Below, piece after piece: positions 3,686 to 18,923 of a stretch of 43,546 nt of DNA. Where the stretch lies: NCBI GenBank assembly GCA_949841465.1, contig CATKZW010000026.1:1-43546 (forward strand), given 5' to 3'. The DNA is from an uncultured Oscillospiraceae bacterium (GTDB lineage Bacteria > Bacillota > Clostridia > Oscillospirales > Oscillospiraceae). Within the stretch, counting starts at the first letter, position 1, and every line of letters starts with the position of its first letter. The notes beneath the pieces were generated by a model. That model saw only the letters and a list, made by a program, of their open reading frames with translations, had not been told where the DNA came from and ran no database searches. A program made the position numbers and the translations under genes.

Positions 3686-4504
3686 TCACAGAACCACCGG
3701 TACCGGCCTGGTCATGGTCAGGCGGTCCGGGGCGACGGCGCACTCCACCGCCAGCACCTTCACCCCGGCCTCCGCCGCCTCCCGCAGGGCCGCGCCGAAT
3801 TCCGGGTGGGTGCGGTCGTTGGGGGAGAAGGCCGCCATGCCCTCCATTTGGACCACCACGCACACCGCCGCCTCGTACCCTGCCTGGCGGCAGGCAATCA
3901 GCTCCCGCAGGTGCTTCACCCCCCGCTGGGTGGGCGCGTCGGGGAACAGGGCCCGACCGTCCTCCTCCAGGGTACAGCCCTTCACCTCTACAAAACCTCG
4001 TCGGAGCAAAGTCCGCTCTGATTCGGAACACCCTGTCGGGCATTCCTCATCTCGCGTCCTTGCTCCTCCTCTCCTCACAAAGCCGGAAAGACGGCTTTGC
4101 GGGGGCCCCATCGTTTCTAATGCCTCCCAGTAGAAATCAAATCGGGAATTCCCCCGGGGGGTTTCCGGGCGGAGCAGGTCGGGCTTGGGCAGGCCCAGTT
4201 CTACGCCCAGCCCGGCCGCCATCCACTCCCCGAACACCCGGTTGGGAGCCTGGGCGTCCATGTTGATGAGCAGGGGTGAACGGCCGGGGCGGAGCTTTTC
4301 CACTGCCACCAGGTCGTATTTCGTCTTGCGCTGGGGGTTGGCGCTCCCCTCCAGATACACCGTGCAGCCGGGAAGCAAAAGCTCTTTACACCGCCCGGTA
4401 TTCTTTACGTGAACGGTCTCCTCCCCGCCGTCCAGCTCCACCCGGGCGATGAAGCGGTTGGGCCGGGACAGAAACCGGGCGGCATGGATGTCCTGATAGG
4501 TCAT
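3686..4504 (-). CDS. sfsA: SfsA-family DNA/RNA nuclease with a 40-residue insertion
   Basis: The protein carries the SfsA signature regions: RFIARVEL and VHVKNTGRCKELL at the N-terminus, PNRVF, GNSRFDF, FVEVKGCTL, ALFPDAPTQRGVKHLREL, and FSPNDRTHPEFG near the C-terminus. The SRFDF and (F/Y)VEVK acidic/lysine residues form the PD-(D/E)XK-like nuclease core. Family members are about 230 aa; this one is 272. The excess is a basic, Gly/Arg-rich block at about residues 131-171, sitting between two core motifs that are normally close together. That block is encoded by an interspersed repeat (see 3989-4112). The start codon overlaps the stop of the upstream FUSC gene (ATGA), so the two are probably translationally coupled. 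SfsA was first linked to sugar fermentation control; the nuclease role is from family knowledge. Confidence 0.9.
   Translation of the reverse strand: MTYQDIHAARFLSRPNRFIARVELDGGEETVHVKNTGRCKELLLPGCTVYLEGSANPQRKTKYDLVAVEKLRPGRSPLLINMDAQAPNRVFGEWMAAGLGVELGLPKPDLLRPETPRGNSRFDFYWEALETMGPPQSRLSGFVRRGGARTRDEECPTGCSESERTLLRRGFVEVKGCTLEEDGRALFPDAPTQRGVKHLRELIACRQAGYEAAVCVVVQMEGMAAFSPNDRTHPEFGAALREAAEAGVKVLAVECAVAPDRLTMTRPVPVVL
3989..4112 (-). repeat. Interspersed repeat family A, copy inside sfsA (in-frame)
   Basis: This block adds about 40 codons to sfsA. Its plus strand shares GCAAAGTCCGCTC and GGAACACCCT, plus an interrupted match beyond them, with the coding strand of the insertion in the rluD-like gene (8831-8942). 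Its minus strand matches the region after walJ (18757-18806): shared pieces are GGCTTTGTG and GGAGGAGCA. A hairpin AAAGCCG..CGGCTTT lies at one end. The two genic copies are translated from opposite strands of the element. Confidence 0.75.
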
Positions 4505-7967: not shown

Positions 7968-8147
7968 TCACCAATTCTTAACCTTTCGCCGGATGCTGGC
8001 AAAGACCAGCAGCGCCATCGTTATCATCTGAATCACGCCGTTGAGACGCACGGCCCAGTCCGGCAGGGGGAGAAAGGTTCTGCCCGCCGTCCACAGGACA
8101 ATGGAGAGGGCCAGTACAATGAGGCTGGCAAGCTGTAATTTCTTCAT
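7968..8147 (-). CDS. Small membrane protein (59 aa) overlapping the rluD-like gene
   Basis: An ATG at 8147 opens MKKLQLASLIVLALSIVL, a first membrane helix, then a short loop (RTFLPLPDWAVRLN) and a second helix (GVIQMITMALLVFASI), and a basic end (RRKVKNW). The start overlaps the stop of the rluD-like gene as ATGA. Its ribosome site AAAGGAGGG is made by the last codons of that gene, so the two are translationally coupled. A hairpin-like topology with a basic tail suggests a two-pass inner-membrane peptide. I recognise no family. Confidence 0.7.
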   Translation of the reverse strand: MKKLQLASLIVLALSIVLWTAGRTFLPLPDWAVRLNGVIQMITMALLVFASIRRKVKNW

Positions 8148-9148
8148 AGATGTCCCTCCTTTGAAATCAGCGCCGCCATGTCGGCGGGCAGGGACGCGGT
8201 GAACACCAGCCGCTCCCCGGTGATGGGATGGGTCATCTCCAGCCGCGCGGAGTGGAGAGCGGGGCGGGAGATCAGCGCCCGGTTTTCGATTCCGTACAGG
8301 AAGTCCCCGGTGAGGGGACAGCCCAGGTGGGCCATGTGGACGCGGATCTGATGGGTGCGGCCCGTCTCCAGCTCCAGCTCCACCAGTGTACGGGGACCGC
8401 AGGCCCGCAGGACTTTGTAACAGGTGCGGGCGGCCTTTCCGTCAGGCCGGACCGTTCGAACTGCTGAGGAGCCGTCCGCCGGGCCGATGGGGGCGTCCAC
8501 TGTTCCGGAGAGGGCGGGGGGTGCGCCGTCGCACACCGCCAGGTAAACCCGGCGGAAAGCCCCGGTGTGAAGCTGGCTTTTCAGCTTCTCCTGGGCGTGG
8601 GCGTGTTTGGCCACCACCAGCAGGCCGGAGGTGCCCTTGTCCAGGCGGTGGACAGGGTGGAAGCCGGATTCGTCCCCGGCCCGCTGATAGTGCCGCATTA
8701 AAAAGTTGCCCAGGGTGTCGTCGAAGTGGCCGTGGCCCGGGTGTACCAGCACACCGGGGGCCTTGTTCAGGACGATGAGATCTGGGTCCTCGCGGACAAT
8801 GTCCAGCGGGCCCTCCGCCGGGACCACCCTGGCCAGCCCGGCCGAAGCCCGGCCAAGCGGGTTCGGCTGGGAGAGCAGGGGCGAGGGAGCGCAGGGGGGA
8901 ATACCGGAAGGGTGTTCCTCCTGGAGCGGACTTTGCCCCGGTGCGGTCAGGCGGACGGACAGGGTCTGGCCCGCCTGCACCCGGACGCGGACATTTACCC
9001 GCACGCCGTCCAGGGTGATGCCGTCCTCCAGCCACTTTACCCGGCGCAGGACCGTGCCCGACAGGCCCAGGGTGCGGCGCAGGAGGGTGTTGACCTCCAG
9101 CCCCGCCAGCTCCGGGGTGATGTCCAGGGTGAGATACCGGGCGCTCAC
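8144..9148 (-). CDS. RluA/RluD-family pseudouridine synthase with an inserted block
   Basis: The catalytic motif HRLDKGTSGLLVVAK with the nucleophilic Asp lies at about residue 169. An N-terminal S4-like region (residues 1-65) and the later LETGRTHQIRVHMAHLGCPLTGD motif complete the family pattern. It isomerises uridines in 23S rRNA or tRNA; the exact target cannot be read from sequence. Between the S4-like part and the catalytic domain sits an extra Pro/Leu/Ser-rich block (about residues 70-107), encoded by a repeat shared with sfsA; without it the length is near 297, as usual for the family. Its start overlaps the upstream membrane gene and its stop overlaps the downstream 59-aa gene. Confidence 0.9.
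   Translation of the reverse strand: MSARYLTLDITPELAGLEVNTLLRRTLGLSGTVLRRVKWLEDGITLDGVRVNVRVRVQAGQTLSVRLTAPGQSPLQEEHPSGIPPCAPSPLLSQPNPLGRASAGLARVVPAEGPLDIVREDPDLIVLNKAPGVLVHPGHGHFDDTLGNFLMRHYQRAGDESGFHPVHRLDKGTSGLLVVAKHAHAQEKLKSQLHTGAFRRVYLAVCDGAPPALSGTVDAPIGPADGSSAVRTVRPDGKAARTCYKVLRACGPRTLVELELETGRTHQIRVHMAHLGCPLTGDFLYGIENRALISRPALHSARLEMTHPITGERLVFTASLPADMAALISKEGHL
8831..8942 (-). repeat. Interspersed repeat family A, copy inside the rluD-like gene (in-frame)
   Basis: The coding strand here carries GCAAAGTCCGCTC, then GGAACACCCT, then a C-rich interrupted match to the non-coding (plus) strand of the sfsA insertion, and finally GGCCGGGCTTCGGCC-type inverted repeats. It is read in the opposite orientation from the sfsA copy and yet remains open, adding about 37 residues. 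Confidence 0.75.
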
Positions 9149-17969: not shown

Positions 17970-18755
17970 ATGTTAAAGGTGGCCACGCTGGCCAGCGGCT
18001 CGTCGGGGAACTGCGCGGTGGTGAGCGACGGACGGGTACATATCCTCATTGATGCGGGCGTCTCCACCCGGCGCATCTCCCAGGGGCTGAAGGCGCTGGG
18101 ACTGGAGCTGCGTCATATCTCCGGGGTGCTCATCACCCATGAGCACATCGACCACGTGGCCGCCCTGCCTGTGATGTGCAGGCAGATGGACGCGCCGCTG
18201 TTCACCGCAGAGGGCACCGCTTATGAGCTGTGCCGGAAGTGGGGCGGGCTGGAGGAGCGGTTCCGGGTGTTTGAGCCGGGGCAGCGGTTTGCCGTCCAGG
18301 GGGTGGAGATCGGCACGTTCGCCACCAGCCACGACTGCGCCTGCCCCAGTGGGTTTTCCGTCACGGACGGGAAAAGAAAGCTGGCACTTTGTACCGACAC
18401 CGGCGTGATTACCCCGGAGGCCCGGGAAGGGGTGCGGGGAGCCCACACCCTCATCGGCGAGTTCAATTACGACCCGGAGATGCTGCGGACGGGGCCGTAC
18501 CCCATCCACCTGCAAAACCGCATCCGGGGGGACCGGGGACACCTGTCCAACCAGATGGGCGGGGAGCTGGCCGCTTGGGCGGTTGAGCAGGGGGCGGAGC
18601 GGATTTTGCTTGCCCACCTGTCCCAGGAGAACAACAGGCCGGATATCGCGTTGGAGGCCGCACGAAGGGCCCTGGATGGGCTGGGGCTTCGGGACGGCGA
18701 TGTGGAGGTGCTGGCCGCGCCCAGAAATGAGGCAACTGAGTGGTTTGAGGTATGA
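17970..18755 (+). CDS. walJ: MBL-fold hydrolase of the WalJ/YycJ type
   Basis: The metallo-beta-lactamase metal motif THEHIDHVAAL is at about residue 56, preceded by ASGSSGNCAVV and LIDAGVSTRRI, which are specific to the YycJ/WalJ branch. Later ligands lie in TSHDCACPSGF, CTDTGV and LAHLSQENN. These proteins are metal-dependent, probably 5'-to-3' exonuclease-like enzymes linked to cell-wall homeostasis and DNA repair; in many Firmicutes they sit near walRK and rlmH. Here it is followed by rlmH, matching the conserved pairing, but walRK is not nearby. GGAGGG precedes the ATG. Confidence 0.85.
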   Translation: MLKVATLASGSSGNCAVVSDGRVHILIDAGVSTRRISQGLKALGLELRHISGVLITHEHIDHVAALPVMCRQMDAPLFTAEGTAYELCRKWGGLEERFRVFEPGQRFAVQGVEIGTFATSHDCACPSGFSVTDGKRKLALCTDTGVITPEAREGVRGAHTLIGEFNYDPEMLRTGPYPIHLQNRIRGDRGHLSNQMGGELAAWAVEQGAERILLAHLSQENNRPDIALEAARRALDGLGLRDGDVEVLAAPRNEATEWFEV

Positions 18756-18756
18756 C

Positions 18757-18806
18757 GGGGCCTCCGCAGGGCCGATCTTTGGCTTTGTGGGGCGCGGAGG
18801 AGCAGG
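18757..18806 (+). repeat. Interspersed repeat family A, partial intergenic copy
   Basis: Starting right after the walJ stop, the plus strand aligns with the minus (coding) strand of the sfsA insertion: GGGGCC, then CCGCA, CCG, GGCTTTGTG and GGAGGAGCA occur in the same order and at nearly the same spacing. After about 50 bp the similarity fades into other GC-rich inverted repeats (to about 18900). Confidence 0.65.
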
Positions 18807-18923
18807 GGCGCCTTAGGCGGCGAAGCCGTCCCAGACCTAAAGCTGCGCGGCTCACGGCGGGCGGAGCTTTCGCCGGAGGCGGAAGGGCGGCTGAGTGGAC
18901 TGAGCGGCGATGAGGTGAGGATA

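Follow-up and report, generated by a model that had tools for sequence, protein, structure and literature searches.

As far as we know, palindromes inserted in frame have been described chiefly in Rickettsia and in some REP-rich species. Linear group II intron RNA retrohoming and SINE-like retrotransposition give a defined 3' junction and an imprecise 5' side. As described in a 2013 survey, the CGTC-tagged REPs have an 8–9 bp stem and a 4–5 base loop, 20–40 bp in all, with stems that almost always begin with A/T pairs, CCA-like tails and a distribution over five other phyla (PMC3733652). The survey places these REPs in genes at times, assigns them no dedicated transposase and lists RPE-4 and RPE-6 of Rickettsia conorii as CGTC-tagged (Di Nocera et al. 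2013, PMC3733652).

The window analyzed here is the whole stretch of 43,546 nucleotides on contig C26 from the draft genome of an uncultured Oscillospiraceae bacterium (3.09 Mb, 136 contigs, 92.87% complete). An earlier note on this DNA had claimed that one repeat element is translated inside two enzymes in opposite orientations. We built a covariance model (R1) from 11 copies of this genome, with the sfsA and rluD copies included. The most likely explanation of the results is a Clostridia family of short non-autonomous mobile elements with a single-stranded active form and an enzyme acting in trans. The features in the window are as follows.

3686–4504, minus strand: sfsA ORF, open through copy 1 (PF03749, PF17746, TIGR00230)
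3998–4109, minus strand: copy 1, sense inside sfsA (R1 match 3994–4110, 107.7 bits, E 6.8e-25; R1 training copy)
4073–4105, minus strand: hairpin 1 of copy 1, CCCCCGCAAAGCCG...CGGCTTTGTGAGG (fold z -5.5)
4065–4072, minus strand: linker AGAGGAGG of copy 1 (alignments A1, A2)
4003–4066, minus strand: hairpin 2 of copy 1, with variable tip (fold and covariation)
3998–4003, minus strand: CGACGA 3' end of copy 1, a CGTC tag on the other strand (edge of direct repeats)
8144–9148, minus strand: RluA/RluD-type pseudouridine synthase ORF, open through copy 2 (PF00849 at residues 123–274, TIGR00005)
8832–8944, plus strand: copy 2, within the rluD-like gene in antisense (R1 match 8832–8948, 73.7 bits, E 4.9e-16; R1 training copy)
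18754–18914, plus strand: copy 3, between a walJ-like gene and rlmH (R1 match 18756–18883, 35.9 bits, E 3.3e-6)

The sfsA and rluD copies do contain the common 13-base (GAGCGGACTTTGC) and 10-base (AGGGTGTTCC) words in the same order and on opposite strands relative to coding, as had been claimed. Their local alignment scored 50, which 0 of 2000 dinucleotide-shuffled pairs reached (null maximum 35); comparison with shuffles was one of the checks named by the earlier note, and the alignment is better than its null. When one of the two copies was reversed, the likeness was lost (score 15, reached by 1188 of 2000), thus its orientation follows that of the gene in sfsA and opposes it in rluD. Copy 3 gave a score of 56 with the sfsA copy (0 of 2000 shuffles) and only 23 with the rluD copy (reached by 256 of 2000). 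A profile made from the sfsA copy and two other copies of this genome recovered all three window copies, with E values of 1.2e-36 for the sfsA copy (a training copy), 9.8e-15 for copy 2, on which the profile was not trained, and 1.2e-5 for copy 3. In both genes the element forms a much stronger fold than shuffled sequence does (z -5.5 in sfsA and -6.0 for copy 2), and copy 2 has a degenerate 3' end (CCGGTGC). Copy 3 had been taken for a partial copy at 18757–18806. It is actually complete and carries an extra insert inside; it begins at ∼18754, where the preceding gene has its stop codon, and finishes with CGATGA at ∼18914. The adjacent rlmH was identified by NF000985. A similar extra insert of ∼40–50 bases is found in hairpin 2 of copy 3 and of L078 in the same genome (C73:7175–7344), and is perhaps a nested second element.

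Both enzyme ORFs stay open through extra codons in frame, at about the places where the earlier note had put them. SfsA of this genome is longer by 35 codons (105 nt) than that encoded by sfsA of G016, and the whole excess lies at copy 1. Alignment of 20 SfsA sequences placed the insert between the conserved DFYWE and GFVEVKG strands. The element occupies this loop in two of the 20, the present genome and its close relative G005, which carries a separate copy on the opposite strand (model match G005:C9:93844–93963). The rluD insert was present in 1 of 20 aligned homologues and absent from 19 relatives; it lies just ahead of the catalytic domain, and structure 1prz (catalytic domain) aligns from residue 106. 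Relatives thus have clean empty sites at both inserts, which was the outcome of the proposed homologue check. No target duplication was seen at the two in-gene copies of the window. In sfsA of G014 and G017 (L031, L028), the loop corresponding to 3989–4112 holds other short inserts that are likewise palindromic; one spans 30 bases and has arms of 13 bases, and one is parS-like. The SfsA loop looks like a hot spot for palindromic inserts.

Codon usage was used to test in-frame reading in 31 of the 34 copies of this genome (30 loci and L018), copy 3 being intergenic. An open frame with coding sequence on both sides was found for 3 of the 31, in sfsA, rluD and a gene for a ylmH-like S4 protein. 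When copies from this genome, the genus, the family and named records were combined, 7 of 204 were in frame (3 sense and 4 antisense), and the further hosts were sfsA of G005 and genes read as tadA, a lysine methylase and a flavin oxidoreductase. The element has on average 4.32 of six frames open per copy, compared with 2.28 in mononucleotide shuffles. Judging from open frames and codon usage, the inserts are presumably translated. The earlier idea that the element could create surface loops repeatedly is borne out to the extent that in-frame insertion recurs, but the other 197 of the 204 copies lack such a continuous frame (the test lumps intergenic copies with disruptive ones), and the protein loops therefore look like a by-product of the element. 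One further copy, L091 (C35:26803–26918), is located in the C-terminal end of an ORF for a large serine recombinase.

The element is ∼115 nt long and consists, in 5' to 3' order, of hairpin 1, the linker AGAGGAGG, hairpin 2 and the end CCGACGA. Hairpin 1 often reads CCCCGCAAAGCC...GGCTTTGTGGGG with freely varying stems; hairpin 2 has a variable tip and mostly G-C outermost pairs, and the end of the element reads GGACTTTGCNCCGACGA. The linker is conserved in two copy alignments (A1 and A2), with variants in class members. CGACGA is in register with the model end in 157 of 208 copies, and its complement reads TCGTCG, leaving an unpaired CGTC tag. When 11 copies were aligned freely, standard pairs made up 84.4% of the pair cells, and 28 cells were changed on both sides, compared with 11.4 in shuffles. 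Alignment of 80 distinct copies to the model, which leans towards the structure, gave 94.3% standard pairs and 359 doubly changed cells vs. 89 in shuffles; all 13 pairs of helix 1 were changed on both sides among these copies.

In all 182 copies that have a recognizable linker, the given strand formed a more stable fold than the complementary one (mean -58.6 vs. -44.3 kcal/mol), and the functional form of the element is therefore probably single-stranded, with the polarity as given. G-U pairs made up 621 of 6674 predicted pairs on this strand. The commonest tip loops in the predicted folds are C(GNA)G triloops. Since such triloops are especially stable in DNA, both RNA and single-stranded DNA are possible as the active form. 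An Rfam scan of the window gave no gathering-level match. Weak matches at lax thresholds were taken for chance, and a resemblance to group II domain V was considered by eye and rejected.

R1 detected at least 42 matches at E ≤ 1 and at least 34 at E ≤ 1e-4 in this genome, where 150 of 1527 candidates were scored; further genomic copies, another check proposed earlier, are thus present. Within the genus, 38 of 42 genomes had a match at E ≤ 1e-4. The family and class scans scored 12 candidates per genome, and their counts are minimum values. At E ≤ 1e-6, the element was found in at least 174 of 300 genomes and 77 of 106 genera of the family, and in at least 49 of 291 genomes and 33 of 180 genera of the class (47 of the 49 genomes lie outside the family). 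Nearly all compared genomes are drafts. Twenty class matches, chosen among the best, all show the two-hairpin plan by eye, some with a degenerate linker or end. The exact 3'-end pattern occurred in 55 stretches of named genome records and in 0 stretches of viral contigs. The titles of the 55 name Oscillospiraceae in 26 cases, Flavonifractor, Pseudoflavonifractor, Intestinimonas, Oscillibacter or Scatomorpha in 15, only an uncultured bacterium in 10, Clostridiales or Firmicutes in 3 and Sedimentisphaerales in 1. In literature searches of limited coverage we recognized no description of this Clostridia hairpin element.

We compared the upstream and downstream flanks of 206 distinct copies. Direct repeats of 16–99 bases (score ≥30) were detected at 40 copies, as against 0.47% of 1500 random pairings, and 166 copies had none at this score. 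For 34 of the 40, the downstream repeat began within 5 bases of the CCGACGA end, or of the first base of the flank searched; for the other 6 it was elsewhere in the flank. A second pass gave 38 abutting repeats at score ≥28. Twenty-two of them share the exact start base, the first after CGACG[A/C], and 14 start up to 11 bases off, some of them because target and CCGACGA have letters in common; 2 of the 38 alignments run 25 bases into a neighboring copy. By our own grouping the abutting repeats represent ∼25 different sites, and independent events are fewer than the counts because several rows are orthologues. Two copies with repeats (L279 and L299) come from a one-contig genome, and assembly error is therefore not the general cause. 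Translation indicated that many duplicated stretches are gene ends, read as those of ilvC, tpiA, recR, addA and eno, and that one is the start of a gene read as lepA.

The eno locus was surveyed in the genus, where 38 of 42 genomes matched and 30 loci were inspected over 230 bases each. Five loci had the element within this distance (the present genome, G002, G034, G004, and G046), and a different repeat starting with GGGGGCCCC follows eno in G031, G039, and G052. In the pairs present genome/G014, G034/G035 and G046/G047, a complete duplicated eno end is followed by a terminator nearly identical to that of the empty relative. We concluded that the eno copies arose by insertion with target duplication, since the second eno end meets the terminator of the empty relative. 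The eno inserts of G004 and G046 also contain an apparent terminator of their own ahead of the element. Taken over all copies, scars at about one-fifth suggest an undescribed way of moving.

Among 40 located insertion points, in which L277 and some rows with nested copies were kept in spite of a misplaced point, the preceding base was T in 25, and the junction was T|G in 20. Thirteen of 228 copies (208 plus the 20 class copies) lay within two bases of a tRNA or tmRNA end, 10 at the 3' end and 3 at the 5' end; there are 40 tRNA/tmRNA genes in the 479,441 bases scanned. These copies are L089, L234, L314, L383, L384, L388, L394, L400, L136, L315, L186, L199, and L080. In five of the 228 (L190, L153, L195, L198, and L071 of the present genome, on C38), the 3' end of the element directly abutted a parS-like palindrome, GTTTCACGTGAAAC, a motif present 10 times in all DNA scanned.

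A mobile element of the favored kind would act as single-stranded RNA or DNA of the given polarity. The point at which an enzyme attaches its CCGACGA 3' end would often be T|G, or would lie at the edge of a tRNA, tmRNA or parS-like palindrome. A break in the opposite strand at a variable distance would lead to duplication of 0 to ∼100 bases of target. Copies would persist mostly where they are untranslated, for instance at gene ends restored by the duplicated part. Because the element is poor in stop codons on both strands, a loop or linker that tolerates insertion may now and then receive a copy of suitable length in frame; sfsA, rluD and the ylmH-like gene are examples. The inserted stretch 5' of the element varies from 0 to ∼100 bases or more, and this counts against the mobile-element reading, since a simple transposon does not predict such variation. 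Y1_Tnp and RVT_1 searches of the genus genomes identified no mobilizing enzyme, and movement itself was not observed.

We also examined complementarity between the insertion point and the sequence just upstream of the element. Where the insertion point was located and the gap was at least 8 bases, a guide-like complement across the point (score ≥20) was found in 9 of 31 copies vs. 10 of 551 control windows. The nine rows represent about six sites, three of them being tpiA and two another shared gene. At eno, TCGCCCAGCTCC lies upstream of the element in G002, G034, G004, and G046 and is complementary to GGAGCT|GGGCGA; the eno copy of the present genome lacks it. The inserted segments of L362, L366, L361, and L365 at eno 3' ends carry a guide-like complement of the insertion point. 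Between L156 and L170, guide and target changed together in one gene. A test independent of the duplications (30-base window) gave 11 of 179 copies at offset 3 and 4 at offset 0, whereas control offsets of 10–40 averaged 1.4 and did not exceed 7. Because this test is weaker, a guide would be limited to a minority of copies. Upstream complementarity of ≥22 was seen in 32 of 202 copies vs. 0.73% of random pairings, several cases being plain local hairpins.

These complements raise the possibility, which we regard as rather doubtful, of a bacterial SINE-like, guide-directed element, in which the guide pairs across the insertion point, the 3' end is joined and the element is copied in. A guide of ∼12–20 bases would lie next to the 5' foot of a short structured RNA or single-stranded DNA, and the CCGACGA 3' end would be joined at the paired point, with copying and variable target duplication. 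One copy could thereby home to the same gene end in other genomes, and loss of the guide would leave immobile copies such as those in sfsA and rluD. If true, this would add a new kind to the mobile elements of bacteria. Splicing as a small intron, with the guide pairing across the upstream boundary, was set aside because the duplicated stop-containing gene end makes it unnecessary and there is no intron match.

Other explanations are more specific as to the machinery or dispense with mobility. A REP/RAYT-type element, i.e., single-stranded DNA moved by an IS200/IS605-group HUH (Y1) transposase, with CGTC as the equivalent of GTAG, seems unlikely to us. It would account for the hairpins, the tetranucleotide tag at one end, the in-gene copies and the C(GNA)G loops at the tips, and CGTC-tagged repeats, two Rickettsia palindromic families included, are described (PMC3733652). 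Against it, 26 of the 42 genus genomes, the present draft and also G040, G014, and G002 with 48–55 copies among them, have no Y1_Tnp match (16 of 42 have one), and of 15 Y1 loci fetched, one carries the element. Target duplication is not a product of Y1 transposition, yet duplications are present here. We likewise assign a low probability to an RNA-mediated SINE-like element, the RNA of which would end in CCGACGA, be joined or primed at the target and be copied by a reverse transcriptase in trans. The defined 3' end with a variable 5' side, the variable duplications (40 of 206 copies), the tRNA/tmRNA-end junctions, the G-U pairs on the given strand and the complement of the insertion point in some copies are all consistent with it. 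However, 17 of the 42 genus genomes have no RVT_1 match, including G037, G043, and G051 with 33–38 copies (25 of 42 have one), ten fetched RT loci hold no element, and the stretches scanned gave no Rfam intron match; one candidate 5'-truncated copy (L014) was noticed in passing. Y1 transposases and reverse transcriptases fail to explain the distribution of the element, although absence from drafts is no proof.

The strong compensatory change could instead reflect a host function such as RNA stability or termination. A host-beneficial structured RNA under selection (3'-UTR stabilizer, terminator or protein-binding site), with in-gene copies as rare accidents, would fit the extreme covariation and the copies that several species carry at the same gene ends, but it is improbable in view of the target duplications, the occurrence in both orientations within genes, the copies at tRNA ends and parS-like sites and the 4 of 42 genus genomes with no match at E ≤ 1e-4. 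Least plausible is a MITE of a DDE transposase, which we consider very improbable. Such an element would be short, dispersed, structured and flanked by target duplications, as is the case here, and by eye an inner word, GCAAAG(T)CCG, recurs inverted between the two arms. The duplications, however, are not of fixed length (16–99 bases at score ≥30), the outer ends differ (GGGGCC vs. TCGTCGG) and the 5' side is imprecise.

Since this family with a well-defined end extends across Clostridia, insertion, strand bias and tolerance can be counted over many genomes. The duplications at gene ends, tRNA-end junctions and guide-like complements are testable marks of how CGTC-tagged repeats might move, repeats with no dedicated transposase according to PMC3733652. 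Compared with linear group II retrohoming and SINEs, the Clostridia element has the same kind of defined 3' junction and imprecise 5' side, and pairing at the insertion point in some copies, but it is only ∼115 nt long and has no Rfam intron match and no known RT partner. Hairpins with a foot tag and strand polarity are features in common with IS200/IS605-derived palindromes, GTAG REPs and RAYTs, from which it differs in that 14 of 15 fetched Y1 loci lack the element, the present draft lacks Y1 and target duplications are present. Like the CGTC-tagged REPs, it has an unpaired CGTC at one end and no associated transposase and is sometimes intragenic; unlike them, its tag-side stem starts with G-C, a second hairpin is joined to the first and the whole measures ∼115 nt.

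The palindromic elements of Rickettsia (RPE-1, RPE-4, RPE-6) are similar in that palindromes are found in unrelated protein genes and add tens of residues. The RPE-4 and RPE-6 tag CGTC is the tag on the complementary strand of the Clostridia element, a likeness of tag and in-frame behavior. The earlier note had likened the element to the RPEs. This stands for an in-gene palindrome open in frame in two enzymes on opposite strands; membership in the RPE families is not supported. The Clostridia element belongs to another lineage, has two hairpins with a purine linker and few in-frame copies, and shows target duplications and tRNA-end junctions, which the available part of PMC3733652 does not mention for RPEs. 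Inside genes, it works like an RPE.
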